Source: Chlorobaculum limnaeum | GTDB taxonomy: Bacteria > Bacteroidota > Chlorobiia > Chlorobiales > Chlorobiaceae | Direction of reading: 5' to 3' | Length of the DNA: 64,000 bases | Assembly (NCBI RefSeq): GCF_001747405.1 | Contig: NZ_CP017305.1 | Location: forward strand, 576,001-640,000 | Notes under the pieces: generated by a model | The model's input: only the letters and a program-made list of their open reading frames with translations | Told to the model about the DNA's origin: nothing | Databases searched by the model: none | Program-made: the position numbers and the translations under genes | Shown here: piece after piece, positions 246-51,031 of the stretch | Layout: every line of letters begins with the position of its first letter | Numbering within the stretch: the first letter of the stretch is position 1

Positions 246-1136
246 TCAAATCAGCCCGAGCTGCTCCAGCTCCGCTCGCAGAATCGCCTTGTTCGACTCG
301 GCCATAGGCACGAGCGGGAGGCGGTACACCTCTTCGACCATGCCCATCAGCGAGAGCGCGTACTTGACCGGTACGGGGTTGCTCTCGATGAAGTTCAGGC
401 GGAAAAGCTTGCGGTATTTGCGGTTGATCGCGCGGGCCTCGTCGAGGTTGCCCGCCTTCATGGCGTCGATCAGCCCCTTGACCACTTTCGGCACCTGGTT
501 GGCCGCCACCGAAATCACGCCGTCGCCGCCGAGCGCCATGAAGGGCAGCATCAGCCCGTCCTCGCCGGTCATCACCGAGAAGTTCTCCGGGCGCTCGTCG
601 ATGAGCGTCATGATCTGCTCGAAGTTGTCCGACGCCTCCTTGACGGCGAGCACGTTTTCGAAATCGCGAGCCAACCGCAAAATCGTCGCGGCGCTCACGT
701 TGCTGCCGGTGCGCCCCGGCACATTGTAGATGATCACCGGAATCGAGACCGCTTCGGCCACGCGGCGGAAGTGCTGGTAGTACCCCTCCTGCGAAGGCTT
801 GTTGTAATATGGCGCGACGGAGAGGATGGCCTGTGCCCCGGCCTTTTCGGCGTTGCGCGCCAGCTCGACCGCGTGCCGGGTGTCATTGTTGCCCGCGCCG
901 GCGGCCACCATCATCGACTCGCCAGCCTCCTCGCAGACGACGCGGATGATCTCCGCCTCTTCGTCGTTCGTGAGGGTGGGCGACTCGCCGGTGGTGCCGC
1001 AGGGAAGCACGATGTCGGTTCCTGCATCGCGATGGAACCGCACCAGCCGCCGAAGGGCTTCGAAATCTATCGATCCGTCCTCGTGGAACGGCGTGACAAG
1101 GGCTACGGCTGAACCTGAAATAAGACGATTGGACAT
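246..1136 (-). CDS. dapA: 4-hydroxy-tetrahydrodipicolinate synthase
   Basis: This 296-aa protein has the full length of the DapA aldolase family. The enzyme condenses pyruvate with aspartate-semialdehyde in the cytoplasm, the first committed step of lysine and diaminopimelate (cell wall) synthesis. The sequence shows the GTTGESPTL phosphate-binding loop near residue 47, YNVPGRTG with the catalytic tyrosine, and LAVKEASDN with the Schiff-base lysine. The N-terminus ([11 protein letters not shown]) is complete. The gene converges with gcvPA and shares the terminator at 113-144. It is divergent from the helicase gene at 1386, with 249 bp between them. Confidence 0.95.
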
Positions 1137-1385: not shown

Positions 1386-4300
1386 ATGACCGGCCTCAAC
1401 GATGAAACGGAAACGATAATGGATGTAAACCCGCGCGATCTGCTCACCCGTCTGCTTGACTATATCGAGGAACAGGCCAGGGAGATCGACCCCCGCGCTT
1501 TCAGACTGTCGAATACCAGAGGATTTCTCAAGCTTCGAACCGATCTCGCCGGTCTGCCGGGCGTTGAATTTGACATCAGCGTCGAGGGCGACCACTTCTG
1601 GTTGCGCGTCCATCGACTCGAAGCGCACAAGCCTCCGGTGCCCGACGAGCGATATAACGCGCTCATCCGCTTCAGCGACGATCCGGCGGGAGCAGAACCA
1701 TCCATCGACGAACTGGCGTTCAAAGCGCATCTCCTGCCCGCCGCTGAAGACAGAAAGGCAGAGGAGATCGAGGCGCTGGAGAGGCAACATCGCGAGCCGC
1801 TCGAAGAGGCGCTCGCCCGCTATGCAGCGCTCTGGCGCGCATGGTCGGAGGGCGAAAAGCCGCGCCGCGAGACAATCGATCTTTACGGAGCGTTGTTCGC
1901 CATCAAGCACCAGCTCGAAGCCGAAGAGACGGCAAGGCCCACCGAACTTGTCTGGGGCATTGGAATCGCGAGCTGGCAGTTGACGTGGCAGGAGTCGCAG
2001 AGCAAGGTTTCCCGGGTCGATTTCGAGTATCCGCTGTTGACGCAGCAGATGGAGGTCGGCATCGACGAGGCGACGATGGCGCTCTGTTTGCGTCCGCGAG
2101 CCACCGATACCCGCTACGAGGGCGATGCATTTGCAAGCTGCATGGGGCGAGTAGCCGTCGAGGTCGAGCGGGCGGCGCGTCAGCAGATCGAACTGAATCA
2201 GGAGCGCCCCGTCACGCCGTTCGATCCCGGCTCTTTTACGGATATTCTGAAGCTCGTCGCCACCAACATGGACAGCTCCGGCGCGTACCGGCCTTTGCCG
2301 GAAGGATATGGAACCGCGCCGCCGCCGGGCGAGCATCTCGTCGTTACCGATTCGTGGGCGCTGTTCACGCGGCCCCGCTCGAACAACTATCTTTTGGACG
2401 ATTTGCAAAGCCTCAGGACGCGCCTCGCGGAGGGGTGTGACATTCCGAACGGTCCGGCCGCATTCGTCACGCTGCCATCGGACGAGCCGGTGCCGTTCGG
2501 GAACATCAGCTTCCGGGGGCTGTCGGGGTATGTCCCGGGTCATGGCAATGGCGAGACTCGGGAGCTGTTCTTCCCGCTGCCGTACAACCAGGAGCAGGTC
2601 ACCATCGTCAAGCAGCTCGAACAGGCCGAGGGCGTCGCGGTGCAGGGGCCGCCCGGCACCGGCAAGACGCATACCATCGCCAATATCATCTGCCACTACC
2701 TCGCCACCGGCAGGCGCGTGCTCGTGACCTCGAAGGGCGAACCGGCGCTCGCGGTTCTGCAAGGCAAGATTCCCGAAGAGGTGCAACCGCTGACCGTGGC
2801 GATGCTTACCGGTGACCGTGAAAGCCTGCGGCAATTCGAGAACTCGATCAACGCGATTCAGGCGCGTGTCTCGCAGCTCAATCCGGAGCTCACGCGCGAG
2901 GAGATCGAGCGTTGCACGAGCCGCATCGACCGGGCGCACGCCGAACTCGTGAGCATCGACAGCCGCATCGACGACATCGCCGGAACGCAACTTGCCGAGG
3001 TGCAGGTCGAAGGCCAGCCGATGCGCGCCCAGGAGCTCGCCGAACTGGTCATCGGCGGCCAGGCAGAACATGGCTGGTTCGACGACGAAATCTCGCTTGC
3101 GCCGGAATTCGCGCCGCCGCTCACGGATGAGGAGGCTGGACGGCTTCGCCAGGCGCGGCGCAAGCTCGGCAGCGATCTCGTGTATGTCAATGCCAGCTTG
3201 CCGTCGGCGGACGACCTGCCGCAACCGGACGATATTTCGCAGTTGCACGCCGTGCTGGTGCGGATGCACGAAATCGGGCGGCTGGTCGATGAAGGCGCGT
3301 TGCCTGCCCTGAAAGCGGCGACGCCCGAAGTGCTCGACGAGGAGCGGCAGCTTCTGGGCGCTATCGATGCGGTGCATTCGATCCTGAAAGAGATCGACGA
3401 ACTCGGCGAGAGCTGGGCGCACCAGGTGCGGCAGCGATGCAGGCAACAAACATTCCAGGCCGAACGCCAGGCGCTCGAAGCGCTGTTCGACGAGATCGCG
3501 GCCCTGACGGAGGCTCGCGCGGCATTTCTGCAACGCCCGGTCGAGATTCCGCCGGAAGCGCTCGGCTCGCCGAAGGTGAGCGAGGCGGTAGAGCGCGGGG
3601 CGGATACCGGAAAGCCGTTCGGGTTTATCGCTTTTGGCAATCACGAGGTCAAGGCGGTGGTGTCGAAAGTCAGGGTGGCGGGCTTGCCGCCGTCGAGCGC
3701 CGAAGCGTGGCAACATGTCAAAAGCTTCATGGCGCTGCATTTGCGCGTCGTCTCGTTCCTGACGCGCTGGAACCAGTTCGCGCCAGCGCTCTCCGCTCCG
3801 GTGCTGGAGGGCGGCGTCGGCGACCTGCGCCGCATCGAGATTGTCGCCTCGACGGCCCGCAAAGCGCACCAGCTCGCCACGCAGCATGATGTCACGCTCG
3901 TGCGCCGCGCGGAGGCTGTGTTCGCGCAGCCCCCGGTGAAGCTGCTGCACGGAACATCGGAAGAGATCGCCAGGGTCAGGGAGCACCTGACGGTTCATCT
4001 GAGCCGCGCGGATCTGGCGAAGGCGGCGACGCAGTTGTCAACCCTGAAGGCCAAACTGGCAGGCACTTCCGGTCCCGTTTCGGAAAAGCTCGCTGCTCTC
4101 GTCGATGGCGAACTCGGAAACGACGCGCTTGCTGCGGAACGAGTAGCCGCAGAATACGCGACGCTGCTCGGCGAGCTTCGGCGCATCAGGGCGCTGAGTC
4201 CGGAGCTTGCATTCGTGCACGAAGCCGCAGGCAGATTCGCCCAGGCGGGAGCGCCGAAGTTCGCTGCCCGCGTGCGTTCGGTGCCGGTGGCGCAAACCGG

Positions 4301-5948
4301 CGAAGAGACGGCGCTTCCGGTCAACTGGCGCATGGCCTGGAGCTGGGCGCGGGTCAAATGCCACCTCGAACGGATCGAGTCGCGCGATGAACTGGTGAAG
4401 CTGTCGGCTCGCCGCCGCGACCTGGAAGAGGGGCTTTCGAAGCTCTACCGCGAGATGGTCGCTTTGGCGGCGTGGATGGAAACAAAGCGCAACGCATCGC
4501 CGCGCGTGCTTCAGGCGCTGCAGGGCTACGCGACCGCGATCAGGCGCATTGGCCGCGGCACAGGCCCCAATGCGACACGCCATCGCCGGGATGCGCGGCA
4601 CCACATGACCAGCGCCGCTGGCGCGATTCCGTGCTGGATCATGAGCCACGCCAAGGTGTCGGAGTCGATGCCCGCCGATATTGGAGCCTTCGACCTCGTC
4701 ATCGTGGACGAGGCGAGCCAGTCGGACATCTGGGCGCTGCCCGCGATTCTGCGCGGCAAGACGATCCTGGTGGTCGGCGACGACAAGCAGGTCTCGCCCG
4801 ACGCAGGCTTCGTCTCCGCCGAGCGCGTTCAGGAGCTGCGCGACCGCTTCCTCGCGGAACAGCCATTCAGGGAGGCGATGACGCCCGGCAGCTCGCTCTA
4901 CGACCTGGCGGCGCGGGTTTTCGCGGCGCGGCAGGTGATGCTGCGCGAGCACTTCCGGTGCGTGCCGCCGATCATTGCCTACTCCAACCGGACGTTTTAC
5001 AAGGGCGCGATCCAGCCGCTGCGGATTCCGAAAGGGAGCGAACGGATCGAACCGCCACTGGTGGATGTGCATATCGAAAATGGCGTCCGAAATCTCGACG
5101 GATGCAACCGCGAAGAGGCGAGCTTCATCGCTGACGAAATCGCGGCCCTGCTCGCAAGCGAGCGCTTCGAGGGCCGCACTATCGGCGTGGTGTCGCTGCT
5201 CGGTATGGAGCAGGCAAAATATATCGATACGCTCGTGCGCAACCGGTGCAACACCGCCGAACTGTTCCGGCGCAAGTTCGAGTGCGGCGATGCGCGAACG
5301 TTTCAGGGCAGCGAGCGCGACATCATGTTCCTCTCGATGGTGGTCGATCCCGCAAACTGCAAAGCGTTGTCGGGCAACATGTTCGAGCAACGCTTCAACG
5401 TCGCCGCCAGCCGCGCGCGCGACCGGATGTACCTCGTGCGCTCCGTCACGGCGTCGCATCTCTCCGACAAGGATTTGCGGGTTTCGCTGCTTCAGCACTT
5501 CGACAAGCCGCTCGTCGCCGACAAGGAGGAGGCGGAAGTGCTCATCGACCGGTGCGAATCGGGCTTCGAGCGGGAGGTGTACACCGCGCTGGTGGAGCGC
5601 GGCTATCGCGTGATTCCGCAGGTGAAGACGGGGGCATACCGCATCGACATGGTTGTCGAAGGCGCGGGCGACATGCGCCTCGCCATCGAGTGCGACGGCG
5701 ACGAGTTCCACGGCCCCGACCGCTGGCCGCACGATCTCGCCCGCCAGCGGGTTCTGGAGCGCGCGGGCTGGACATTCTGGCGCTGCTTCGCCTCCACGTG
5801 GCGGCTGCACCAAGACGAAGTGCTCGGCGAACTCACCGAACGCCTGTCAGCAATGGGCATCGAGCCGCTCGGCTCGATAACGAGAGCGCCGAAGCTCGTC
5901 GAAAAACGGTCGCTGATCGTCTCGGTGTATGAAGAATCGCCTCGCTGA
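1386..5948 (+). CDS. Large superfamily 1 helicase with C-terminal Vsr/DUF559-like nuclease domain
   Basis: The protein has 1520 residues. Motif I, GPPGTGKT, lies at 421-428, followed by RRVLVTSKGEPAL. A long helical insertion (roughly 480-1080) precedes motif II, VIVDEASQSD (acidic pair D1108-E1109). Motif VI appears as NVAASRARDRMYLV near 1337, so this is an SF1 (UPF1/DNA2-like) helicase. The last 100 residues hold a PD-(D/E)XK/Vsr-like fold: a RGYRVIPQV strand, then AIECDGDEFHG with E1435 and D1437, then QRVLERAGWTFWRC. This order matches single-protein helicase-nucleases found in defence islands. An AGGA sits 8 nt before the ATG; MDVNPRD at 1420 is an alternative start. Antiphage function is inferred. 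Confidence 0.85.
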   Translation: MTGLNDETETIMDVNPRDLLTRLLDYIEEQAREIDPRAFRLSNTRGFLKLRTDLAGLPGVEFDISVEGDHFWLRVHRLEAHKPPVPDERYNALIRFSDDPAGAEPSIDELAFKAHLLPAAEDRKAEEIEALERQHREPLEEALARYAALWRAWSEGEKPRRETIDLYGALFAIKHQLEAEETARPTELVWGIGIASWQLTWQESQSKVSRVDFEYPLLTQQMEVGIDEATMALCLRPRATDTRYEGDAFASCMGRVAVEVERAARQQIELNQERPVTPFDPGSFTDILKLVATNMDSSGAYRPLPEGYGTAPPPGEHLVVTDSWALFTRPRSNNYLLDDLQSLRTRLAEGCDIPNGPAAFVTLPSDEPVPFGNISFRGLSGYVPGHGNGETRELFFPLPYNQEQVTIVKQLEQAEGVAVQGPPGTGKTHTIANIICHYLATGRRVLVTSKGEPALAVLQGKIPEEVQPLTVAMLTGDRESLRQFENSINAIQARVSQLNPELTREEIERCTSRIDRAHAELVSIDSRIDDIAGTQLAEVQVEGQPMRAQELAELVIGGQAEHGWFDDEISLAPEFAPPLTDEEAGRLRQARRKLGSDLVYVNASLPSADDLPQPDDISQLHAVLVRMHEIGRLVDEGALPALKAATPEVLDEERQLLGAIDAVHSILKEIDELGESWAHQVRQRCRQQTFQAERQALEALFDEIAALTEARAAFLQRPVEIPPEALGSPKVSEAVERGADTGKPFGFIAFGNHEVKAVVSKVRVAGLPPSSAEAWQHVKSFMALHLRVVSFLTRWNQFAPALSAPVLEGGVGDLRRIEIVASTARKAHQLATQHDVTLVRRAEAVFAQPPVKLLHGTSEEIARVREHLTVHLSRADLAKAATQLSTLKAKLAGTSGPVSEKLAALVDGELGNDALAAERVAAEYATLLGELRRIRALSPELAFVHEAAGRFAQAGAPKFAARVRSVPVAQTGEETALPVNWRMAWSWARVKCHLERIESRDELVKLSARRRDLEEGLSKLYREMVALAAWMETKRNASPRVLQALQGYATAIRRIGRGTGPNATRHRRDARHHMTSAAGAIPCWIMSHAKVSESMPADIGAFDLVIVDEASQSDIWALPAILRGKTILVVGDDKQVSPDAGFVSAERVQELRDRFLAEQPFREAMTPGSSLYDLAARVFAARQVMLREHFRCVPPIIAYSNRTFYKGAIQPLRIPKGSERIEPPLVDVHIENGVRNLDGCNREEASFIADEIAALLASERFEGRTIGVVSLLGMEQAKYIDTLVRNRCNTAELFRRKFECGDARTFQGSERDIMFLSMVVDPANCKALSGNMFEQRFNVAASRARDRMYLVRSVTASHLSDKDLRVSLLQHFDKPLVADKEEAEVLIDRCESGFEREVYTALVERGYRVIPQVKTGAYRIDMVVEGAGDMRLAIECDGDEFHGPDRWPHDLARQRVLERAGWTFWRCFASTWRLHQDEVLGELTERLSAMGIEPLGSITRAPKLVEKRSLIVSVYEESPR

Positions 5949-6197: not shown

Positions 6198-6944
6198 ATG
6201 AAAAACTTTGCAAGCCGTACGGCAGGTGTCGCCCTTCTCTCCATGATGACCGTAATATCCGGCTGTTCAAAATCGGATAACCCGGTATCCGAGGCGGTCT
6301 CTTCACTTTCAGGAGAATCGCTCCCGAAGCGTTATGAGGTCAAATCGGGAGTCGTGCATTATGAGCCGCAGAACCTCATGGGCATGGGAACGACTACCCA
6401 AACGCTTTATTTTGAAGATTATGGCAGAAAAGAGGCTGTGGAAACGGTGACGGAATCGAACGTCATGGGGATCAGGACGCATGAGCACTCGATGCGTATC
6501 ACCGATGGTTATACCAGTATTTCCTACGAAATAAAGAAAACCGTCAACGGCAAGGATGAAACCAGCAAGGTGGCGACAAAGAGCGACATCCGGGAGCTTC
6601 AGGAGATGGCGCAGATGATGGCCATGTCGCTGGATGTCAACGAGCTAAAGAAAAACATGGATTACCGCGAGGAGGGTACGGAATCGATTGCGGGAGTGAC
6701 CGGCAAGAAGTACTCGGTAGCGATGAACAAGGAACAGCCTGATGCGCGTGTTTATGGCGTGATGTACAAGAATATCGTGCTGAAAAGCGAAATGGGCAGC
6801 ATCTCCATGAAAGCGGCGAGCATCGAGGAAAACGTCGCCATTCCGGCGTCGAAATTCGCGATTCCGGCGGGCTACACCGTTCAGGAGGTCAACGTCGCCG
6901 AGGAGATGGAGAAAGCCGCCGCCATGGGTGAATCCAAAGAGTAA
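6198..6944 (+). CDS. Predicted lipoprotein of unknown function
   Basis: This 248-aa protein begins with a lipoprotein signal peptide: basic MKNFASR, a hydrophobic stretch, then the lipobox VISGC with the lipidated cysteine near residue 23. The mature part is polar with repeated beta-type segments (TQTLYFEDYGRKEAVETV, then YTSISYEIKK). That pattern resembles periplasmic LolA/LppX-like or outer-membrane-anchored proteins, but I recognise no family. It lies 249 bp after the helicase gene, is GC-rich like the core genes, and ends at its own terminator, so it is probably a separate unit. Confidence 0.75.
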   Translation: MKNFASRTAGVALLSMMTVISGCSKSDNPVSEAVSSLSGESLPKRYEVKSGVVHYEPQNLMGMGTTTQTLYFEDYGRKEAVETVTESNVMGIRTHEHSMRITDGYTSISYEIKKTVNGKDETSKVATKSDIRELQEMAQMMAMSLDVNELKKNMDYREEGTESIAGVTGKKYSVAMNKEQPDARVYGVMYKNIVLKSEMGSISMKAASIEENVAIPASKFAIPAGYTVQEVNVAEEMEKAAAMGESKE

Positions 6945-7328: not shown

Positions 7329-8657
7329 ATGGCCGATCTGAAATCGATTTACAAAAAACTCTCTCCAAAGCCGCTCGATGGTACGGAATTAGAGCGATGG
7401 TACGTCGATGCCGTTGCCGGACGGGGCGATGATCCGGTCTGGAAGCTCACGCGGCGTTTGCAGGATGAGCCAGGCGGACATCTCCAGATTCTCTTTTCGG
7501 GGTATCGTGGTTGTGGCAAGAGCACCGAGCTGAACAAGATGACACGAGAAATCGAAGGCGACATGCTGGTGCTGAACTACTCCGTGCTCAAGGAACTCGA
7601 TCCGGTGACGCTGAATTACGTCGAGCTTTTCGTGATTACGATGGAGAAGCTTTTCGAGCTTTCCGGGAAGCATCATCTTGCCATCAGTCCCGATCTTCTT
7701 CGTAGCGTCCATGAGTGGATTCAGAGTGTGGAAATCGAGAGAACTCGTGAAATGGGCGCTGATGTTGGCGTCGAAACGGGCGTAGAAGCTGAAGTCAGCG
7801 TTCCCTTCCTGAGCAGGATTTTCGGGAAAATGAGAGCTTCCGCCAATGCGAGTTACAGAAACAAGAAAACCATTGTCGAAACGATCGAACCACGGCTTTC
7901 CGATCTGATCGTCTATTGTAACCTTCTCATTCGCGAGGTCAAATTGCGACTGCCGGGTATCGGTAAAAACGGGCTGCTTGTAATCATAGAAGATCTCGAC
8001 AAGCTCAGTGTCGAAAAAGCAGAGGAGCTTTTTTTCAAAAACAGTTTCATTCTGACCCGCCTTCAGGCACATGTGATTTTCACGTTTCCCATATCGCTTC
8101 GTCATCATCGAAATGCCAAACTGATTCGGGCTAATTTCGATGAGGATTTCGAATTGCCGATGGTCAAGGTGCATGAAAAAGACGGGATGCCGTTTGAGGC
8201 GGGCATCAATAAATTGCGGGAAATTGTAGAACGCCGCATTGACAAAGAGTGCTTTGAAACTCCGCAATTGCTTGAACGGATTGTCAAAGACAGTGGTGGT
8301 TGCTTGTGGGATTTGTTCAAGATGATTCGCGATGCGTCAGATAATGCCTTGCTTCGGAAAGGCGATTCGATCAATGAGGATGATTATCTGAGAAGTTTCC
8401 GGATGCTTCGGCGGGATTACGAAAATTCTATTGCTGAAAAAAGAGTCGATCATCAGGTGGTGATTTCCGTGGATGACTACTATCGTGTGCTCGAAGAGCT
8501 TGCAAAGAGCAAGACAAAGAGAATCGACAATAACGATGCGGCGCTCGATCTGCGGCAAAGTCTTTGCATTCTTGGCTATAACGGTGATTGGTGGTGCGAT
8601 GTTCACCCCATTGTGCGCACCATTCTCGATGAGCGAAAACAAGAACTGACGAAATGA
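7329..8657 (+). CDS. P-loop AAA/KAP-like ATPase, partner of the TPR protein
   Basis: This 442-aa protein has a Walker A motif, GYRGCGKST, at residues 58-66 and a Walker B strand, LLVIIEDLDKL, near 215-222. An FILTRLQAHVIFTFP strand resembling sensor 1 follows. The C-terminal third looks like a winged-helix region (ALDLRQSLCILGYNGDWWCDVHP). This layout is typical of stand-alone STAND/KAP-type ATPases that work with repeat proteins. Its stop overlaps the start of the next gene (ATGA), which implies translational coupling. It has no signal peptide or clear membrane segment, so it is probably cytoplasmic. Function unknown; a role in defence is inferred from context only. Confidence 0.75.
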   Translation: MADLKSIYKKLSPKPLDGTELERWYVDAVAGRGDDPVWKLTRRLQDEPGGHLQILFSGYRGCGKSTELNKMTREIEGDMLVLNYSVLKELDPVTLNYVELFVITMEKLFELSGKHHLAISPDLLRSVHEWIQSVEIERTREMGADVGVETGVEAEVSVPFLSRIFGKMRASANASYRNKKTIVETIEPRLSDLIVYCNLLIREVKLRLPGIGKNGLLVIIEDLDKLSVEKAEELFFKNSFILTRLQAHVIFTFPISLRHHRNAKLIRANFDEDFELPMVKVHEKDGMPFEAGINKLREIVERRIDKECFETPQLLERIVKDSGGCLWDLFKMIRDASDNALLRKGDSINEDDYLRSFRMLRRDYENSIAEKRVDHQVVISVDDYYRVLEELAKSKTKRIDNNDAALDLRQSLCILGYNGDWWCDVHPIVRTILDERKQELTK

Positions 8658-10336
8658 CGCAGTCACAGAATTCTGATCGCACCTGGGCGGAGAGTCTCGA
8701 AAGCGCGGCGCGCTATTTTACGCATACGGTGGGCGGCGCGTTCCGGTTTGCGGTGACCAGTGACGAGTTGGTGCAGCGGCGGTTCAATGCGGAGCTTCAG
8801 CAGGTTTTGCGTGGCAAGGAGACGCCGGTGCAGATTCACGACTGGTCGAAGGCCTCACCACCCGATATGTATCCTGCCGAGCAGCTCCGGCGCTTGAAGG
8901 CGGCCCGTCCCGATACGAAGGGGATTATTTGCATCGGCCTCGAACGCGCCATGCGCGAGAGTCCGGAGATGCTGACGTTGCTTAACTTTGCGCGGGAGGC
9001 GCTGTCCGATGTTGGTGTGCCGATTCTCTTCTGGATTTCATTCCGCACCCTGCCGCTCATGAGCCGCTTCGCCATCGACCTCTACAACCAGCGGATCGGC
9101 GCGAATCTCTACTTCGAGCACGACGCCGAAAGCGCCGACGCCGACGGCTCCGCCATGCGCTTCATCGCCCACGAAACCGTTGCTGCAAACCAGGACCTTC
9201 GCCCGCTCGAAGCCCGCCTGAAACTGCTGGAAAAGCAGTTCGACGAGCTGAAGAAGATTCAATCGCCCGAAAAAATGGCCAACGATATTGTGCTTGAGCT
9301 GTTGAAGGTGTATGTGCAGATTCCGGGGATGAGCAGGATGGTTCAATCGCTGATGGATGAGTATGGAATGTTGATTGATCTTGAGAAGCCTGGCCGATGC
9401 TTTGATATGGCTACGATTTACGAATATCTCGGTGATGTTCAAAAAGCTGAACAGCACTATCATCAGGCATTGAAACAGTATCGTATTCTTGTCGAGCAGA
9501 ATCCGCAGGCTTGGTTGCGGGATTTGGCACTGACACTAAACAATTTGGCAAATCTGCAATGGAATCAAAACGACTATGATTCAGCGGAAAAGGGGTACCG
9601 AGAAGCGCTTGATATCAGGCGAGATTTGGCCGCAAGCAATTCGCAGAAGTGCCTGCCAGATGTGGCTGCGACGCTGAACAATCTTGCGAAATTGCAATGG
9701 AGTCGAAACGATTATGATTCAGCAGAAAAGGGGTACCGGGAAGCCCTGGATATCAGGCAAAAACTAGCTGCAAGCAATCCGCAGAAGTACCTGCCAGATG
9801 TGGCTACGACGCTGAACAATCTTGCTGTGCTGCAATGGAGCCAAAACAACTATGACTTAGCGGAAAATGGGTACTTAGAAGCGTTAGGAGTTTATAAGGC
9901 ACTGGCTGCAAGTAATCCGCAGATTTACCTGCCGGAGGTTGCCATGACGCTGAATAATCTTGCTGCGTTACAACAGACACGAAAGGGCTACGATTTGGCA
10001 GAAAAAGGATACAATGAAGCGTTGTGTCTCTATAGGGAACTTGCTGAAAGTAATTCGCAGACCTATCTACCGGATGTAGCTTTGACGCTCAGCAACATGG
10101 GATTGTTGTATCAAACCGGGTTGCCCGACAGGGAGAAGTCATTAGCCTGTGCTCAGGAGGCGTTGTCTATTCTTTTGCCTTTGAAAGAGCGTCTTCCGAA
10201 AACTCGAGAGTCTTTTGAACGGGCAAAGCAAGTCGTCGAAAACTGGGGTCTTGATCCCGATGAATTCATTGCCAACCTGAACATTTCCCAGCCAGAAACT
10301 CCTGCCAACGGTACCTCTTCTGCTGAACACGAATAA
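8654..10336 (+). CDS. TPR-repeat protein with N-terminal alpha/beta domain
   Basis: This 560-aa protein starts inside the stop of the ATPase gene (4-bp overlap). The first 170 residues form a predicted alpha/beta domain with hydrophobic strands GIICIGL and VPILFWISF and no P-loop. A linker to about 240 is followed by at least five kinesin-light-chain-type TPRs between about 249 and 490. Each repeats near 48 residues with the pattern LTLNNLA.LQ....YD.AEKGY.EAL. Two repeats are close to identical at DNA level (from about 9577 and 9721), which suggests recent expansion. The TPR array probably binds a partner or a trigger protein. Confidence 0.8.
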   Translation: MTQSQNSDRTWAESLESAARYFTHTVGGAFRFAVTSDELVQRRFNAELQQVLRGKETPVQIHDWSKASPPDMYPAEQLRRLKAARPDTKGIICIGLERAMRESPEMLTLLNFAREALSDVGVPILFWISFRTLPLMSRFAIDLYNQRIGANLYFEHDAESADADGSAMRFIAHETVAANQDLRPLEARLKLLEKQFDELKKIQSPEKMANDIVLELLKVYVQIPGMSRMVQSLMDEYGMLIDLEKPGRCFDMATIYEYLGDVQKAEQHYHQALKQYRILVEQNPQAWLRDLALTLNNLANLQWNQNDYDSAEKGYREALDIRRDLAASNSQKCLPDVAATLNNLAKLQWSRNDYDSAEKGYREALDIRQKLAASNPQKYLPDVATTLNNLAVLQWSQNNYDLAENGYLEALGVYKALAASNPQIYLPEVAMTLNNLAALQQTRKGYDLAEKGYNEALCLYRELAESNSQTYLPDVALTLSNMGLLYQTGLPDREKSLACAQEALSILLPLKERLPKTRESFERAKQVVENWGLDPDEFIANLNISQPETPANGTSSAEHE

Positions 10337-10357
10337 ATTCCATCTTCGCCTGGGGAC

Positions 10358-10475
10358 GCCAAGCTCCAGCTTGGCATCTTTCTGCTGTTTCCATGGCATA
10401 TTTTCATCACTATGACGTTGTTTTGCGAGTCGGAAAATGTTTCGATACTTGCATTGTGTGGAGCCTTCGGCTCCA
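10358..10475. repeat. Intergenic hairpins (GCCAAGCT...AGCTTGGC type)
   Basis: Two short perfect hairpins occur here: GCCAAGCT/AGCTTGGC at 10358-10375 and TGGAGCC/GGCTCCA at 10459-10475. Related words recur near 10478 and 12490 (ATGGCGCTCCCAGGTTGCTT). They look like dispersed intergenic repeats. The first could act as a weak terminator for the TPR gene but has no T-run. Confidence 0.5.
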
Positions 10476-10489
10476 TTGCCAAGCTGGAG

Positions 10490-10573
10490 CATGGCGCTCC
10501 CAGGTTGCTTCAGGGTTGCTCCCAGGTTTCACGCCGACCGGCCTGCTTCGATCAGCTCTTCGGCAAACTGGAG
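10490..10573 (-). pseudogene. Duplicated 3' end of recN (remnant)
   Basis: On the minus strand this reads LQFAEELIEAGRSA then stop, which aligns with the true RecN tail LQLATELIEAGKTA. The homology continues past the stop into the shared downstream words AAGCAACCTGGGAGCGCCAT. It matches 12493-12560 with several substitutions, so it is either an old copy or one acquired from a relative. Only the last 14 codons remain. The two copies bracket the nucleotidyltransferase remnant and the TIR gene. Confidence 0.7.
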
Positions 10574-10783
10574 TGGCATCACAAAACGATCAAGGCCGAA
10601 TCACCGCTCGACTGGAAACTGCTCGCCGAAATCAAGGAAACATTTCAGGAATCCGAATTGCGGTTCAGAGTGGATGTTCTGGATTGGAATGATATAACAG
10701 AATGATTTCGCAAGGCGATAGAAATATCCGGTTTTAAGATATTGTCGAGAATATTGATAGCTTGTTTCGGTCCCTATATCTAA
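10574..10783 (+). pseudogene. Broken MNT-type nucleotidyltransferase, C-terminal fragment
   Basis: The plus strand reads SPLDWKLLAEIKETFQ, then LRFRVDVLDWNDITE, an in-frame TGA at 10703-10705, then FRKAIEISGFKIL. This matches the usual end of small MNT-domain nucleotidyltransferases (minimal NTase of HEPN-MNT toxin-antitoxin pairs), where DWKLLAEIKE..., PFRVDVVDW and SF...IE occur in that order. The catalytic N-terminal half is missing and its place is taken by the recN remnant. The internal stop confirms decay. The assignment is by motif recall only. Confidence 0.6.
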
Positions 10784-10907
10784 CGGTGTGCGTTACCTGC
10801 GCTGGGGCGGGGACGGTGAAGCCGTCTAACCAGAAAAATGCCGAGGCGTAGAAAAATGCTTGAAAACGGCGCAGAATCCCTAGCGTCAGGTGCACGCTTT
10901 GTTAGCC
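10778..10907 (-). other. Candidate attC (integron cassette recombination site), 130 bp
   Basis: The outer plus-strand ends are ATCTAAC (10778-10784, perfect RYYYAAC) and GTTAGCC (10901-10907, close to GTTRRRY). The inner arms GTGCGTTACCTGCGC (from 10788) and GCGTCAGGTGCACGC (to 10897) pair with bulged bases, including one extra A, as in folded attC sites. The size is like long VCR-type sites. The site lies directly 3' of the TIR gene, as a cassette requires. The cassette start at 12078-12084 (minus strand GTTAGCC) pairs exactly with GGCTAAC of this site, as expected for an integrated cassette. Confidence 0.65.
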
Positions 10908-10925: not shown

Positions 10926-12029
10926 CTATATCGCTTTCATAGAGGGTTGTAACCTTTGTTTTGACTCTGCCCGAATACATAGAGAACGCATAAGACGCTC
11001 AAAACCATTTTGCTGAGATAGATTAACCCAATGCCATCTACTTAGTGCTTCCGGAACATCACATTCTTCAAGCCGAATTGGAATTATGTAAATTTCATCT
11101 TCAGGCTGTTCGGATGCAACATCCAACGCATATTTTATTTCCTTCTGTATATATCCTGCCTTGTTGGTTGATTTGTTACTCAAACAGACTAACACAACAT
11201 CTGATGATTTAACGGCTTTGGGTATTTCAAGCCGCCAGTCTTGACCAGGTAATAAATCTTCTTCGTCAAGCCAGGGGTCTATGCCATATTCTGTTAACTG
11301 ATTATATAAGTCACGCACAGCGGGTTTGTCTCCAGAAGCATGACACAAGAAGGCTTTCAATTTCGTCTTATTTGTCGGAGTTCGTTTTGATGTTTTCTCA
11401 AAAAATATTTTTTCTGATACATCTTTTGTTTCGGCAAACTCATTTAAGAACGCTTCAATTGCGATAATAATTTGTGGCTCTATATTTGCTTCAAGTAATT
11501 TTGATTTGCACTCTGAATCAAGTTGAGGCTTTTTTATCTTGAATACCTTGTCTGGCTTGTATGCTGTAAGGTCAAAAATACAACCTTTAGTTTCAAGGTG
11601 AAAAAGGTCAAGATAATCGGTTGTGTGCTTATGTGATTTATATATTGTCCAAAGTATATGGGGAAGCAAGGAGATAACAATATATTCTTCAACTGTCCTA
11701 TTTGCTAACGTGTAAATCTCCTTTGTCTGGAACAAAGTCAAGGCAATACAGTTTGAGCCAACCGAGCGCACAAAGAAATTATCTTCAAGTGGTGCTTGAG
11801 TAATACCAACTCGAATCACTGTTTTAAAAATATCTATTGGTTGAGTAGAAAGAATGCCATGAACGTATGAATCGCTAAAATACTTCGATGTAGAGTAATC
11901 TATAATCAAAGACTTATCGTGCGAAACGGCATTCAAAACGCTGTTGTCAATACTGTTGATTAGTGAAGTTATCTTTTGAAAATTGACAAAATCTAAATCG
12001 CCAAGTTTGAAGAAGTGGATTTCCAGCAT
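10926..12029 (-). CDS. TIR-domain protein, probable integron cassette gene
   Basis: The protein has 367 residues. The last 135 form a TIR domain: KAFLCHASGDK (box 1), GIDPWLDEEDLLPGQDW (BB loop), SSDVVLVCLS, then GYIQKEIKYAL with the likely catalytic glutamate, and YIIPIRLE. TIR domains of this kind hydrolyse NAD or act as signalling scaffolds in bacterial immunity. The first 230 residues form an unrecognised domain with LETKGCIFDL followed by a lysine-rich segment and another cysteine. The gene is markedly AT-rich compared with its neighbours. It starts about 50 bp inside a cassette boundary and ends 18 bp before the attC-like site, so lateral acquisition is likely. Confidence 0.8.
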   Translation of the reverse strand: MLEIHFFKLGDLDFVNFQKITSLINSIDNSVLNAVSHDKSLIIDYSTSKYFSDSYVHGILSTQPIDIFKTVIRVGITQAPLEDNFFVRSVGSNCIALTLFQTKEIYTLANRTVEEYIVISLLPHILWTIYKSHKHTTDYLDLFHLETKGCIFDLTAYKPDKVFKIKKPQLDSECKSKLLEANIEPQIIIAIEAFLNEFAETKDVSEKIFFEKTSKRTPTNKTKLKAFLCHASGDKPAVRDLYNQLTEYGIDPWLDEEDLLPGQDWRLEIPKAVKSSDVVLVCLSNKSTNKAGYIQKEIKYALDVASEQPEDEIYIIPIRLEECDVPEALSRWHWVNLSQQNGFERLMRSLCIRAESKQRLQPSMKAI

Positions 12030-12517: not shown

Positions 12518-14224
12518 TTACGCCGTCTTCCCCGCTTCGATCAGCTCCGTGGCGAGCTGGAGGGAGGCGGCGGTGATGTCAGCTCCGCTGAAGAGGCGGG
12601 CGACCTCTTCGATGCGCCGGGTTTCGTCGAGCGGGGCGACGCCGGTGAGGGTGCGGTCGGCTTCGATGCGTTTCTTGACGGCGAGGTGCAGGTCACCCAT
12701 CGCGGCGATTTGCGGGAGGTGGGTGATGGCCATGATCTGGTGCATCCGCGAGAGGCGCTTGAGGCTGAAGCCGACCGACTGGGCCACCTTGCCGCTGATG
12801 CCGGTGTCGATTTCGTCGAACACGAGAATCGGCAGCTCTGCCGAACGGGCGAGCGCGCTCTTCATGGCGAGCATGACGCGCGAGATTTCGCCGCCGGAGG
12901 CGACCTTTGCCAGCGGCTTTGGTGACTCGCCGAGGTTGGTCGAAATCATGAACTCGACGCGGTCGCAGCCGTTGTCGAACGCCTTGTAGCGCGTGCCGTC
13001 GATCTCGATATCGCCGTCCGGCGAGGCTTCGCGGGTGAAGCGCACCTCGAAGGCGCTGTGCGGGATGCCGAGCGTCGAGAGGCCTGCCATGATCTCCCGC
13101 TCCAGCCGCCCGGCGGCTTCGCGCCGATGCTCCGACAGGCTGTTCGCCGAGGCCGAGAGCGCCGTGCGGGCGTTGCGGATGTCGGCCTCGATGGCCGCAA
13201 GTTCGCCCGCCACATTCTCTTCGAGTGACAGCTCTTCGGCAAGACGGTCGCGCAGGGCAATCAGTTCGTCGATGCTTTTTCCGTGTTTTTTGGCGAGCCT
13301 TTGCAGCAGCAACTGTCGCTCGCGCAGCTCTTCGAGTCGGTCGCGGTTGAACTCGATGCTGCCGGTGTAGCGCCCCACGTGGCGGTTCAGCTCCTCCACC
13401 GTGGCGGTCGCGCCGCGCAGCTCTTCGAGGTACGGTTCGAAGCGCTGGTCGATCGAGGTGAGCTTTTCGAGTAAATGTACTGCCGACGAGAGCGCCGTGT
13501 AGGCCGAACTTTCCGATTCGTAAAGGTTTTCGCCCAGCTCCGTACCGAGGCTGAAGAGCGTCTCGGCGTTTTCGAGCAGGTTGATCTCCTCGTCAATCGA
13601 GCGCTCCTCGCCTTCGACGAGCGCCGCCGCTTCAAGCTCCCTGTACTGATAATCGATGAAATCGCGCTTCTCGCGGAGCGCGTCGGCGCGTTCGGTGAGG
13701 CATTGCAGCTCGCGGCGGAGCTTGCGGTACTCTTCGAGCGTGTTGCGGTACTGCGCGGTTTCGGCGTGCAGGAGGCCGAATCCGTCAAGCATTCCGGCGT
13801 GCGTTTCGGCGTGCAAGAGAAGCTGGTGGTCGTGCTGGCCGTGCAGATCGACGAGCTGCTGTCCCACTCGCTTGAGCAGCGAGACCGTGCAGGGGGTGTC
13901 ATTGATGAAGCAGCGCGACTGGCCCGTCGCCGAAATGTCGCGCCGCAGAATCAGTTCCGGCGTACGCTCGATCTGTTCTTCGTCGAGCATTTCGCCGATG
14001 CTTTCGTAGTGTTCGCCGCCGAAGACCGCCTCGATCACCGCCTTGGACGCGCCTCCGCGAACCATCTCGGCGCTTGCCCGCTCGCCGAGCACCATGTTGA
14101 GCGCCCCCATCAGGATCGACTTGCCCGCGCCGGTCTCGCCGGTGATGATGGTCAGTCCGGGTGCGAAGCTGACCGAAAGTTCGTCGATGAGCGCGAAATC
14201 CCTGACATAAAGGCTTTTGAGCAT
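12518..14224 (-). CDS. recN: DNA repair protein RecN
   Basis: This 568-aa protein is a full-length SMC-like ATPase used in recombinational repair of double-strand breaks. It shows LKSLYVRDFALIDEL at the N-terminus, Walker A GETGAGKS near residue 30, and QHDHQLLL. A central coiled coil (about 150-370) is followed by the signature ASGGEISRVMLAMK and Walker B PILVFDEIDTGISG. It acts in the cytoplasm on chromosomal DNA. The 3' end is duplicated as a remnant at 10490-10573, so this gene end marks the border of the accessory region. Confidence 0.95.
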   Translation of the reverse strand: MLKSLYVRDFALIDELSVSFAPGLTIITGETGAGKSILMGALNMVLGERASAEMVRGGASKAVIEAVFGGEHYESIGEMLDEEQIERTPELILRRDISATGQSRCFINDTPCTVSLLKRVGQQLVDLHGQHDHQLLLHAETHAGMLDGFGLLHAETAQYRNTLEEYRKLRRELQCLTERADALREKRDFIDYQYRELEAAALVEGEERSIDEEINLLENAETLFSLGTELGENLYESESSAYTALSSAVHLLEKLTSIDQRFEPYLEELRGATATVEELNRHVGRYTGSIEFNRDRLEELRERQLLLQRLAKKHGKSIDELIALRDRLAEELSLEENVAGELAAIEADIRNARTALSASANSLSEHRREAAGRLEREIMAGLSTLGIPHSAFEVRFTREASPDGDIEIDGTRYKAFDNGCDRVEFMISTNLGESPKPLAKVASGGEISRVMLAMKSALARSAELPILVFDEIDTGISGKVAQSVGFSLKRLSRMHQIMAITHLPQIAAMGDLHLAVKKRIEADRTLTGVAPLDETRRIEEVARLFSGADITAASLQLATELIEAGKTA

Positions 14225-36900: not shown

Positions 36901-38181
36901 ATGAGCGACAAACAGTTTGACTCCATAGCATCGGCTCTCGAAGACATCCGGAACGGCAAGATGATCATCGTCGTCGATGACGAAGATCGCGAGGACGAAG
37001 GCGATCTGATCGCCGCCGCCGAATACGCCACGCCCGAGATGGTGAACTTCATCACCAAAGAGGCGCGAGGTCTGCTTTGCGTGGCCATTCCCATGCAGCG
37101 CGCCCGCGAGTTGCAGCTCGAACCGATGGTGCAGCGCAACACCTCGCAGCACGAAACCAATTTCACGGTCTCCATCGATGCTATCGCCGAAGGAGTCACC
37201 ACGGGCATTTCGGCCTACGATCGCTCCATGACCCTCAAGATGATCGCCGATTCCTCGTGCACGGCGGACGACTTTTCGCGCCCCGGCCACATCTTCCCGC
37301 TTCGCGCGATGGATGGCGGAGTGCTGCGCAGAGTCGGCCACACCGAGGCCGCCGTCGATCTCTGCCGCCTGGCCGGTTGCCAGCCCGCCGGTCTGCTCTG
37401 CGAAATCCTGCACGATGACGGCAGCATGGCTCGCCTTCCCGAGCTCTTGAAGCTCAAGGAGAAGCTCGGCATGAAGCTCATCACCATCAAGGACCTCGTG
37501 GCCTACCGGATGCAGCAGAGCAAGCTCGTGCAGCGCGCCGTGGAGTCGAAGCTTCCGACCGCGCACGGCGAGTTCAAGCTCATCGCTTACGAAACCATCG
37601 TTGATCAGCAGAACCACATGGCTTTCGTCAAGGGCGACGTCGCCGACGGAGAGCCGGTGCTGGTTCGGGTGCACTCGCAGTGCGCCACGGGCGACACCTT
37701 CGGCTCGCTTCGCTGCGACTGCGGCCACCAGCTCGAAACCGCCCTGCGCATGATCGAAAAGGAGGGGCGCGGCGTGCTGATCTATCTCATGCAGGAGGGG
37801 CGCGGCATCGGTCTCATCAACAAGCTCAAGGCGTACAATTTGCAGGACGAGGGTTTCGACACGGTCGAGGCCAACGAGAAGCTCGGCTTCAAGGCCGACC
37901 TGCGCGACTACGGCATCGGCGCGCAGATTCTGCAGGACCTTGGCGTCCGCAAGATGCGCCTGCTCACCAATAATCCGAAAAAGATCGTGGGCCTCGAAGG
38001 CTACGGCCTCGAAATCGTCGAGCGCCTGCCGCTGGAGATCGAGCCGAACGATGTGAACCGCTACTATCTCGAAACCAAGCGCGACAAACTTGGCCATATG
38101 ATCGAAATGGCATCCGGCAACGAACGCATTCTCTTCGAGCGTCTTGCCGACGAGCAGTTGAAACAGCACAAGAAACCATAA
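36901..38181 (+). CDS. ribBA: Bifunctional DHBP synthase / GTP cyclohydrolase II
   Basis: This 426-aa protein joins the two entry reactions of riboflavin synthesis. The N-terminal DHBP synthase shows [36 protein letters not shown] and [15 protein letters not shown]. The C-terminal GTP cyclohydrolase II has the zinc site [18 protein letters not shown] and the loop [19 protein letters not shown] chose the ATG at 36901 over a GTG one codon upstream. It lies 24 bp before glyA and may be co-transcribed with it. Confidence 0.95.
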
Positions 38182-45908: not shown

Positions 45909-46186
45909 CATTGTTCAATAATTTTCCAATAGCCGGTCTTGTCGCTTCCTGTACGTTCTACTATTCCTTTGTCTTTGAGTGCTTTCATTCTACGTTTTGC
46001 AGTGCTTAAACTTATATTCAATCGCTCACTGATTTCGGCGGCAGTTATTTTATGGTTTTGTTTTATCAAAGAAAATACAGTGTCATTTACAGTGTCATTC
46101 TGCGTTTTTACAGTGTCATGTGCTGGTGGAATGTAATGAACATGCATTTCACGGTTTTTCAGCGAATGATGTTCTTGATGAATCAA
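45908..46186 (-). CDS. Winged-helix DNA-binding fragment
   Basis: This 92-aa frame carries a winged helix at its C-terminus: ITAAEISERLNISLSTAKRRMKALKDKGIVERTGSDKTGYW, with the final wing strand. The same ending is usual for the C-terminal domain of larger AlbA_2/RecG-like or Fic proteins, and the N-terminal 40 residues have no fold. So it is most likely a truncated remnant, though a free-standing small regulator is possible. It is AT-rich relative to tonB. Confidence 0.5.
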   Translation of the reverse strand: MIHQEHHSLKNREMHVHYIPPAHDTVKTQNDTVNDTVFSLIKQNHKITAAEISERLNISLSTAKRRMKALKDKGIVERTGSDKTGYWKIIEQ

Positions 46187-46798
46187 GTTTGAAAGAAAAC
46201 TGACAAGTTATTTATCGGTTTTGTGAATGCCTTTTGATTCAACTATGATTTACTTTTCAATTTTTGCCTGTCGTTTCTGTTTTCTACACTTTAAGATAAC
46301 AAATGGCGGCAAGAAATCGTTTTGCATCTCGTCCGACAACGCTGCTTAAACTCCACGACCTGCTCGCCACGCGATACCCCAAAACCAGCAGAATGGCTTG
46401 AATCGTCGATTGAATATCTATGGGTACATTCCCAGAAGCTTTACTTCGGGAAAGAATCGGCACAAAATTATCTCATACCCCGTACCACTGCCGCAGGGTA
46501 ATTCATTGTCGGTCGCGAGTAGCGCGTATTGTTGGATTGATGAGCAAGTTTGTTGAACACAACACGATGAGTTTAGAAAGCTGTTGTCAGATTCGGGCCT
46601 TAACAACCTGAACTGTAACCTGTGATGTTGCGTGCAGGGCAAAAACAAGGTTTACAACGTGTTTCTATGAAGATGAATTTAAGGTTAAGAAATTGTCACG
46701 CATTTCAAGGCACAAATAGAAAGCCGTTAAGGTATTAATAATTAAATGATGTGTTGTTCAAGTTATTTTCATCCCGTGCAATGTTTTTATTGCTTGGG
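46187..46798. other. Non-coding AT-rich stretch with second 57-bp repeat copy
   Basis: There are 612 bp without a supported gene. Copy 2 of the 57-bp repeat is at 46328-46384. The minus-strand ORF at 46418-46648 and plus-strand ORF at 46420-46611 overlap and have no recognisable motif. This is probably decayed island sequence downstream of the TIR gene. Confidence 0.5.
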
Positions 46799-47760
46799 TT
46801 ATTCTTTGATATACTTTATAAGGCTCATGTATTCCTCTTTATTTGAATAATCGGCTCTCTTTTTATCATATAGCAAGTAAGGTATATCTTCATCTGGGCA
46901 GTTATCCAATTTTAAAGGAATTACCTTTTTATCGTTATTACCGCCATATTCTTTATTCAATATAGGGCCATATTCAGCTCTACACCAATTAGACTTTCCT
47001 AAATTTTTACTTAATGTTACGATGATAAATTTTGAGTTTTTAAGCCCGTATTCTATTTTATTTGTAATGTTGTCTCCGAAATTAATTTGTTCGTGGTCAA
47101 CCCATACTTTAATTCCTTCTTTTTTAAAATCAGAAACAATCTTTTCTATTGCAGACTTATCTGCACTAGAATGACTTAAAAAGACATCAAACTCTCTTAA
47201 ATTCATGGTGTTTTTTGATTTATTCTTCCAATTATAAACTTCAATATTTATATCTCTAACTGTTAATTTTGCTCTAAAAAATCGAACAATTCCTACATGT
47301 CCTTTGAAGGGGATGTTTGGTATGCAATGTTTTATAGTAAAACTATTATTTGAGTTTGAAACTGTGCCTTCAATCTCGCCTGAAAAAAATTTAATTTAAA
47401 TATATTATATCCAGAATCAAGCTGTATTTCTTTTTTAATGAAACTAAAGGATGAAAAAGGTATTCATTAACAAAACTTAATCTTAAAATGGTTTTGTCTT
47501 TTGATGTTTCTGATGGTGAAGTATGAAAGCAGATAAACGTGCCGTATTCATTTGCTCTACAAATTAAACCTGCACCAACATTTGACCAATCGCAAATTTT
47601 TCATTTTTGCGGAGATGGAACCGTTAAGAAATTGTCCCTGTGACTTGTTTATAGCATATGATATTAAATATTTCCCCGTTCCACTACCAGTGCCTGTTAT
47701 GAATTTGTCAGACAAAAACCAATGACCTCCCTGAGCTTTATTAGCATCCCAGTCTTTCAT
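46799..47760 (-). pseudogene. Lectin-like beta-sandwich plus TIR protein, with three frameshifts
   Basis: The intact end (46799-47206, 135 aa) is a TIR domain: REFDVFLSHSSADK, KEGIKVWVDHEQINFGD, SKFIIVTLSKNLGKSNWCRAEYGP (likely catalytic Glu) and KVIPLKLD. The same frame runs upstream through GHVGIVRFFRAKLTVRDI and SGEIEGTVSN to a T7 run. Other frames continue it: GYNIFKLNFF, CDWSNVGAGLICRANEYG and, from ATG 47760, MKDWDANKAQGGHWFLSDKF. Joined, they give about 320 aa with a concanavalin/LamG-like N-terminal domain. The shifts lie at A5 (47597-47601), T6 (47431-47436) and A7 (47383-47389). If real, the gene is dead or yields only a short TIR protein from 47206. Confidence 0.65.
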
Positions 47761-47813
47761 CTATTTCTTTTTTTAATGTTTCTAATTCGGAATCGTTAGG
47801 ATTATCTTCCATT

Positions 47814-47821
47814 AAATTTTC
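47814..47821. repeat. 8-bp target site duplication, left copy (AAATTTTC)
   Basis: AAATTTTC directly precedes the IS end at 47822 and recurs directly after the other end at 49180-49187. Confidence 0.9.
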
Positions 47822-50534: not shown

Positions 50535-50535
50535 T

Positions 50536-50835
50536 TTATAATATTTTAATGTATGTGGTTAGATACTTTCTGAGTGAGTTATACTTGCCAAACTGCGACT
50601 CACTTCCATTGTTTTTGGCGAATATGCGCAATAAATTTGTGCGTTTATTTTTATCTGTCAACTCGTAGTAGCGCTTAAGCTGAAGTCCCTGGGTGAGCAT
50701 CAGACCGATCAAACTATCAAAGTCCGCGATAAGCCAACGTATGCTGCTGCAGCCTTGGCGTGCGCCCGTTACTTGTGGCTTTTCGCCCCAGCATTCGAGG
50801 AGATTGACCCATATGATGGTGCTTGCGTGAGGCAT
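50536..50835 (-). CDS. Hypothetical ORF upstream of the vWA gene
   Basis: This 99-codon frame ends 1 bp before the vWA start codon. The first part is GC-rich and the last 40 residues (KNKRTNLLRIFAKNN, then SLRKYLTTYIKIL) are AT-rich, as in the vWA gene. No family is recognised. The junction may be the edge of the horizontally acquired island, and the frame may be chance read across it. Confidence 0.25.
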   Translation of the reverse strand: MPHASTIIWVNLLECWGEKPQVTGARQGCSSIRWLIADFDSLIGLMLTQGLQLKRYYELTDKNKRTNLLRIFAKNNGSESQFGKYNSLRKYLTTYIKIL

Positions 50836-50976
50836 TTGCTATTGGGAAAAGTGATTCTACCTTGAATCTTCAGCCAACACAATAAACCAAATGTAAATAA
50901 TTTGTACCGGATCGCAAGCACAAGTGCACGGTAATTGCCGTCACATCTCATTTTCTGTCCACTCCCTACAAACGCG

Positions 50977-51001
50977 AAAAGCCGGGGAGTTCCCGGCTTT
51001 T
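50977..51001. terminator. Intrinsic terminator after frr
   Basis: AAAAGCCGGG (50977-50986) pairs with CCCGGCTTTT (50992-51001). It serves frr on the minus strand (stop at 51032). Confidence 0.82.
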
Positions 51002-51031
51002 GCAATGGCGTCGATCTTGGAGAGAGCTTCG

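Follow-up and report, generated by a model that had tools for sequence, protein, structure and literature searches.

The window analysed here, a stretch of 64,000 nucleotides from the single-contig genome (2,797,276 bases) of the green sulfur bacterium Chlorobaculum limnaeum (NZ_CP017305.1, positions 576,001 to 640,000 of the forward strand), carries a single-copy pair of genes encoding an AAA+ ATPase and a partner protein made of an alpha/beta N-terminal domain (N-domain), a helical linker, an array of tetratricopeptide repeats (TPRs) and a tail. The two genes are kept together across distant prokaryotes and no third gene is kept with them, the N-domain is conserved and devoid of Walker A, and the sensor-like end of the partner is replaced between sister species or, in relatives, mutagenized by diversity-generating retroelements (DGRs). 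The best reading of these data is that the pair is a two-chain relative of the NLR/Avs-type STAND switches. That it works as such a switch, with an exchangeable sensor arm and a role that would most likely be defensive, appears on balance somewhat probable.

The 4-bp overlap of the two genes already reported by the first-pass annotation of this DNA is an ATGA stop/start. It corresponds to a coupling, as that annotation had proposed, and this coupling extends far beyond C. limnaeum. When species genomes were scanned with an alignment of the ATPase, at least 538 relatives were confirmed; the 80 best were retained as loci, and in 67 of these 80 the next gene downstream on the same strand, usually overlapping or abutting, encodes an N-domain protein. 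The profile behind this count was built partly from these same loci; a seed-only profile (the window partner and 11 others) matches 56 of the 75 downstream open reading frames (ORFs) of a 75-locus set at E<=1e-3, including 45 that are not seeds. The 13 loci without an N-domain match comprise five contig ends (L074, L108, L110, L134 and L140), two damaged partners retaining N-domain remnants (L075 and L102), three long-form partners that begin at the phosphoesterase and leave remnant N-terminal or TPR-end residues (L076, L082 and L083) and three Thermoflexus loci without any recognisable partner (L128, L129 and L136). Setting aside these 13 loci and two others with a frameshifted ATPase (L106 and L117) leaves 65 intact pairs, including four that contig ends cut (L080, L100, L127 and L139). 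The genes overlap in 50 of the 65 pairs and by exactly 4 bp in 14, start codons being taken nearest the stop, which biases the gaps towards zero. Among seven more distant loci, the N-domain profile matches the partner in L029, L046, L048 and L049 and not in L030, L047 and L050; L028, also distant, is a fusion.

The same association is found when the search starts from either protein. Of 296 genomes searched in the phylum, 20 were matched by the ATPase query and 13 by the N-domain query, 12 of the latter also having the ATPase; the remaining one, G117, was again negative with the ATPase profile. Neither gene is therefore commonly found alone (ATPase only in 3/80 loci, partner only in 1/13 genomes), nor is the repeat content fixed among relatives. 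No third gene is conserved in the 75-locus set, the largest flanking family (ABC-transporter-like by eye) being present at 6 loci, and the pair looks self-contained. The strict coupling and the overlap, together with a mobile and patchy distribution, would also suit a toxin-antitoxin-like pair, in which one protein, harmful alone, is silenced by its partner at a ratio fixed by the overlap. This is highly unlikely, since Pfam, NCBIfam and PADLOC found no toxin-like domain, an orphan partner (G117) and an orphan ATPase (Thermoflexus) persist, and typical pairs of this kind do not consist of two large proteins with conserved ATPase motifs.

Motif conservation was counted on 39 aligned ATPases and 38 aligned partner N-domains. 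Walker A and R303 are invariant in the 39 ATPases; the Walker B motif IIEDLD is intact in the window protein, D222 and D224 being present in 36 and 38 of the 39, respectively. The near-invariant arginine of a GGxxR motif, presumably sensor-2-like, is missing from the window ATPase and from 7 of the 38 other aligned members (at aa 327, R 31, W 3, I 2, F 2 and L 1 across the 39). The AlphaFold2 model (predicted local distance difference test, pLDDT, 92.4) displays an alpha/beta ATPase core followed by the winged-helix-like C-terminal region expected at first pass, which is reached by the Orc/Cdc6 matches. The best PDB match of this model is Orc1/Cdc6 2qby_A (Z 16.4, 287 residues, root-mean-square deviation (rmsd) 5.1), followed by Tn7 TnsC 7mbw_C (Z 15.5), the archaeal ATPases 2qen and 2fna_A (Z 15.3, the latter over 314 residues) and CED-4 2a5y_C (Z 14.6, rmsd 4.8, 288 aligned). 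By its motifs and predicted fold, the protein is a member of the Orc/Cdc6-STAND neighbourhood; as the Orc/Cdc6, TnsC and STAND matches are close in Z, its exact clade is left open. Searches of the window ATPase gave sub-threshold AAA matches only with Pfam, no match with NCBIfam and one weak match with PADLOC (E 0.029). The earlier label of KAP/STAND-like holds for its STAND half and not for its KAP half: KAP_NTPase (PF07693) is matched by 18 of 22 aligned relatives at E<=10 (best 4.8e-9) but is not listed for the window ATPase at E<=1 or E<=10.

The AlphaFold2 model of the partner (pLDDT 87.6; predicted template modelling score, pTM, 0.64) comprises an alpha/beta domain, a helical stretch and a TPR solenoid. 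Pfam assigns nothing above cut-off to residues 1-245, in agreement with the first description of an uncharacterised alpha/beta domain. The strands of the modelled N-domain (30-34, 59-63, 90-94 and 124-128) and its helices follow the order of the ATPase core, minus the large helical insert of the latter. Walker A is found in 0/38 N-domains versus 39/39 ATPases, and the Walker B-equivalent position is a degenerate hydrophobic strand, hhhh[G/N]L[D/E]; R114 and D142 are conserved in 38/38 N-domains and N111 in 37/38. In a profile comparison of the N-domain with the ATPase, the best-scoring alignment covers the Walker B and sensor-1 strands without being significant. From the matching strand order and the lack of Walker A, set against this non-significant profile match, we infer a dead NTPase domain, probably a nucleotide-binding-dead relative of the ATPase core. 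Good matches of the partner in PDB sequence searches are confined to the C-terminal TPR-like helices, and its structure matches cover mainly residues 181-544; the DAP3, RNA12 and MoxR folds are not among the structure matches listed, which does not exclude them. A more specific proposal, which seems unlikely, is that of a split NLR-like immune receptor, in which the dead N-domain would complete the ATPase active site in trans, with Arg114 as arginine finger, and only a sensor-bearing partner could fire the engine.

By its layout, the pair has its nearest description in the nSTAND2 systems, compared here by description. According to the parts of Kaur et al. 2021 (PMC8195603) considered, nSTAND2 is a mobile two-gene operon that pairs an active STAND with an inactive one fused to variable modules, most commonly GT4 and HEPN, and has affinity to CR-ATPase, Dap3 and RNA12. 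The window pair likewise consists of two adjacent genes, one encoding an active NTPase and the other a protein with apparently lost nucleotide motifs and with variable C-terminal modules, in a mobile two-gene operon. The eroded STAND would correspond to the N-domain, with its missing Walker A, degenerate Walker B strand and matching order (for the P values of the profile comparison, see below). The modules differ, those found here being TPR, WD40 or phosphoesterase-NACHT-lectin; neither GT4 nor HEPN is among the matches listed for 23 partners, and neither DAP3 nor RNA12 is among the 25 Pfam families listed (of 52) for 22 ATPases. Membership of nSTAND2 is thus a real possibility, though a somewhat doubtful one, and the pair is not filed there.

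The TPRs of the partner are certain (TPR_12, 3.2e-25) and kinesin-light-chain-like, the modelled solenoid resembling structures of kinesin light chain and LGN. Tandem Repeats Finder (TRF) detects a period of 138 bp in 3.1 copies (score 462), and the best protein period is 46 aa. The repeats are therefore real, but adjacent full units are only 81, 74 and 72% identical in DNA, so that the array is not fresh and the first-pass view of a recent expansion is overstated. The comparison of repeats between relatives that had been suggested with it, in which partner variation was measured as partner length and autocorrelation period, reveals differences in TPR content, in unit length and in whole C-terminal domains.

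The clearest case is provided by the orthologous locus of a sister species, a metagenome-assembled genome recorded as Chlorobaculum sp. (G288; the locus is numbered L034 or L073). The pair adjoins dapA in the window, in L073 and in L077, and recN closes the other side in the window and in L073; in G063, the locus bordered by dapA and recN contains a 37-aa ATPase remnant. Between the window and L073, nucleotide identity is 88.7% in the dapA-side flank, 91.2% in recN, 91.4% in the N-domain and 91.4% in the tail and 3' flank, compared with 66.9% in the ATPase, and the TPR region, lying between segments at 91% identity, is unalignable. The window array is built of units of 46 aa, that of L073 of units of 40 aa. 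In the wider set, the N-domain is less conserved than the ATPase (for instance 50 versus 60% aa identity between the window and L071), so that the 93% N-domain versus 63% ATPase identity between the window and L073 represents a reversal. The trees also disagree, the window-L073 path being 0.074 for the N-domain versus 0.92 for the ATPase, with conflicting starred sister pairs. The change between the two species is an array replacement, not an addition of copies, and the simplest reading of the sequence comparison is that both the ATPase and the TPR arm were replaced around a retained N-domain. Unequal recombination does remodel repeat arrays, and TPR residues are free to vary; the divergence of the array could instead reflect the fast drift of a weakly constrained array without any exchange. 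Such drift is quite unlikely to be the explanation, since the unit length differs, the change is bounded on both sides by segments at 91% identity and the ATPase likewise shows an excess of divergence, with a conflicting tree.

Exchange of the C-terminal part after the N-domain is also seen on a larger scale. Among the 23 partner proteins scanned with Pfam (for six of them, among the matches listed), most carry TPRs, L124 and the plasmid-borne L029 and L030 carry WD40 repeats instead, and L087 has an extra AAA segment plus TPRs. The long form of Chlorobium, scanned in L031, combines TPRs, a calcineurin-like phosphoesterase, NACHT and an FGE/lectin end; L032, L037, L042 and L044 resemble it in length and sequence, and L039, L043 and L052 encode phosphoesterase-NACHT-FGE proteins without the N-domain (L031-L045 and L070-L117 come partly from the same genomes, and the two sets are not summed). 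In the intact pairs, partner length ranges from 231 to 1597 aa, excluding one of 104 aa at a contig end.

Long-form partners that share about 95% identity along most of their sequence differ in their last ~35 codons by NNC-type changes. Mismatches between template and variable repeats fall at template adenines in 21/24 cases in G252, 18/28 in G173 and 18/19 in G141, and with this adenine-specific template/variable pair these partners are DGR targets. The template lies ~150 bases upstream of the ATPase in G252 and ~80 in G173, as measured from ORF starts. In G173, it is preceded by an ORF without any Pfam match, whose ends resemble the reverse transcriptase (RT) of G141 and which, read by eye, would be a deleted RT. 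In L053 (G141, C79), the DGR target, an HRDC-domain ORF, the RT and the template are consecutive, and after them come an ATPase remnant of 25 aa and a gene for a phosphoesterase-NACHT protein. RT genes are present in 8/8 genomes searched, and in L053 the RT adjoins both template and target; for G209 and G244, the matches listed include no template beside the pair. The locus L039 carries an RT-like ORF with an apparent internal deletion (94-640) and next to it a DGR template; an intact ATPase gene, paired with a phosphoesterase-NACHT-lectin partner, follows immediately.

The window partner was itself considered as a DGR target and rejected as such: the Chlorobium repeat motifs do not occur in the window beyond chance, and Pfam finds no lectin/FGE domain in it. 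No copy of the pair or of a Chlorobium-type lectin end was seen at the RT and FGE loci inspected in the C. limnaeum genome. Among these loci, L156 (4815-7480) encodes a 745-aa RT-domain protein, probably a CRISPR RT fusion, and adjoins a small ORF that is presumably Cas2-like; L153, L154 and L155 encode three ~1040-aa proteins with FGE/lectin C-termini and similar N-termini, which we take to be DUF4062-like.

A defensive role is suggested by the neighbours of the pair in the window, by its patchy occurrence, by its decay and by its diversification. The gene upstream of the pair encodes a 1520-aa helicase with a C-terminal MTES_1575-type nuclease domain, which resembles the ProA/Hhe/PDC-S37 antiphage models far below NCBIfam cut-offs; convergent with the pair lies a gene for a TIR-domain protein with an unassigned N-terminus of ~215 aa. 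Both were rejected as a third component: the TIR gene gave weak TIR-domain matches elsewhere, and the helicase has one 61% homologue, beside the pair in L042 only. The helicase, the 248-aa ORF that lies between it and the pair and the TIR gene are all absent from L073 and L077, and seem to be cargo of this site that is independent of the pair. The kept relatives of the ATPase span, as recorded, Chlorobi, Bacteroidota, Desulfobacterota, Cyanobacteria, Lachnospiraceae, Chloroflexi, archaea and others; plasmid records gave eight matches, all cyanobacterial and below 60% identity. The breakage of the ATPase gene by frameshifts or stops in L102, L106 and L117 fits what is expected of a dispensable gene.

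Part of this evidence would also be compatible with a non-immune signalling pair, in which the ATPase and the TPR protein would control a cell process such as transcription or protein assembly, different client proteins accounting for the variability of the TPR/WD40 end. The broad spread, including archaea and Lachnospiraceae, and the ordinary-looking neighbours at the non-Chlorobi loci read would suit such a function, as would a winged-helix region that, on the model, could bind DNA and TPRs of the kinesin-light-chain type, which are general adaptors. This alternative appears doubtful, given the patchy occurrence of the ATPase (21/86 genomes of the family by profile), the frameshifted and remnant copies, the replacement of the ATPase and TPR array at the same site and the mutagenesis of the arm by DGRs in relatives.

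Several observations weigh against a defensive two-chain switch. The arginine at position 327 is replaced by a tryptophan in the window ATPase, whose use of ATP may therefore be altered. The homology of the N-domain with the ATPase is not significant (P 0.038-0.084, probability about 1%; profile score 19.5 versus 16.7 for the reversed profile and <=14.4 in 10 shuffles), and PDB sequence searches with the alpha/beta part of the partner returned only matches at E 0.12 or worse. In Thermoflexus, a single genus, 3 of the 80 loci have the ATPase without partner. The pair, which outside Chlorobiaceae is mostly found among ordinary-looking genes (15 loci, by eye), does not keep the helicase and TIR genes as conserved neighbours. 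NCBIfam gave no specific antiphage match for either protein and PADLOC weak matches only, and no described antiphage family fits the pair. Finally, two queries of phage records gave no match, and none of 17 pattern matches in IMG/VR was confirmed.

Beyond nSTAND2, three groups of known systems share traits with the pair. Antiviral Avs/bNACHT STANDs, which according to the parts of PMC10907252 considered hold effector, NTPase and sensor in one chain, also associate a STAND-like ATPase with a variable repeat sensor; here, in contrast, the NTPase and the TPRs are encoded by separate genes. DGR-diversified NACHT-lectin sensors, as reported in the same parts (Dore et al. 2024, PMC10907252), resemble the long-form partners of Chlorobium, with their phosphoesterase, NACHT, lectin/FGE end and DGR repeats, whereas lectin and DGR repeats are both lacking from the window form; a coupling of such sensors to this ATPase and N-domain was not found in these parts of the paper. 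The iSTAND MoxR-vWA ternary systems, in the portion of Kaur et al. 2020 (PMC7159879) covered, couple an inactive STAND-like component to an AAA+ engine and variable modules, as the pair may do; however, no MoxR/vWA is found among the window neighbours scanned and no third gene is kept in the 75 loci. One fused relative, L028 (4297-7221) on a Nostoc plasmid, in which the ATPase is fused behind a SAV_2336-related domain, does adjoin a MoxR-family gene and is a possible bridge to ternary systems. No earlier description of the ATPase/N-domain pair was recognised in the portion of the open-licence literature covered, supplements aside (PMC8144416 included).

The features of the window are collected in Table 1. 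No promoter-like site near the pair is above chance, and terminator-like stems such as the one that follows the pair occur in the region at chance level (5 found, 4.4 expected). Elsewhere in the window, positions 46001-52000 are low in G+C (0.35-0.47 per 2-kb step, the rest of the window being mostly near 0.58-0.60), and a tRNA-Ala(cgc) call at 37642-37734 is unusually long (93 bases) and may be spurious.

Table 1. Features of the window (positions 1 to 64,000; aa, amino acids; nt, nucleotides)
Feature	Position	Strand	Evidence or remark
dapA, one border of the variable site	246..1136	-	L073 ortholog 7918-8805 = PF00701
Helicase with C-terminal nuclease domain	1386..5948		
248-aa ORF	6198..6944		
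AAA+ ATPase, 442 aa, Orc/Cdc6-STAND-like fold	7329..8657	+	ORF; AlphaFold2 pLDDT 92.4; fold matches; 39 aligned relatives
Walker A GYRGCGKS, aa 58-65	7500..7523	+	In 39/39 aligned ATPases
Walker B strand, LLVIIEDLDKL region, aa 215-225	7971..8003	+	Strand E215-221 in model
Near-invariant Arg position of GGxxR motif, aa 327; Trp in window	8307..8309	+	Alignment
C-terminal winged-helix-like region, aa 376-442	8454..8654	+	Secondary structure; Orc/Cdc6 matches reaching residues 438-442
ATGA stop/start overlap of ATPase and partner genes, 4 bp	8654..8657	+	ORFs
Partner, 560 aa: N-domain, helical linker, TPR array, tail	8654..10336	+	ORF; AlphaFold2 pLDDT 87.6
Conserved alpha/beta N-domain core, aa 28-155, no Walker A	8735..9118	+	Model; alignment of 38
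TPR region, aa 246-530, unalignable with orthologous locus L073	9389..10243	+	
Four 46-aa TPR units, aa 290-473	9521..10072	+	TRF, identity, autocorrelation
Partner C-terminal tail and 3' flank	10253..10785	+	91.4% identical to L073
Terminator-like stem	10358..10375		Chance level in region
TIR-domain protein	10926..12029	-	
recN, other border of the variable site	12518..14224	-	RecF/RecN/SMC Pfam; 91.2% nt to L073

If the pair is indeed a two-chain STAND-type switch, the ATPase, with its intact Walker motifs, Orc/Cdc6-STAND fold and winged-helix region, would be a nucleotide-driven engine, the N-domain of the partner would dock on it and couple the sensor to the engine, and the C-terminus of the partner would be an exchangeable recognition arm. 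Binding of a ligand by the arm would lead the hetero-complex to swap ADP for ATP and to assemble or change shape, and the output would most likely be defence against phage or other invaders. For the long Chlorobium forms, this output may come from the phosphoesterase and NACHT domain; in the window form, Pfam recognises no effector domain. Of the sensor-effector pair proposed at first pass, the sensor would be retained, as a fast-changing recognition C-terminus suggested by TPR replacement and by the DGRs of relatives; either protein, or neither, may be an effector.

The retention of a pair whose sensing end is swapped or mutated is the usual evolution of immune-type detectors. In the less likely case of the split receptor considered above, having engine and sensor on distinct chains would allow recombination to exchange the sensor arm, in the case of TPRs, or DGRs to hypermutate it, in the case of lectins; the coupling domain would stay fixed and one core would have two diversification routes. 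If the two-chain reading is right, the pair would be a widespread two-gene receptor, in which recognition and firing belong to different proteins and a fixed adaptor domain joins them. Sensor exchange would be directly testable with the TPR arms of the two Chlorobaculum alleles. Furthermore, DGR-hypermutated lectins and TPR sensors would be tied to the same ATPase core, which would link two lines of work on bacterial self/non-self recognition.

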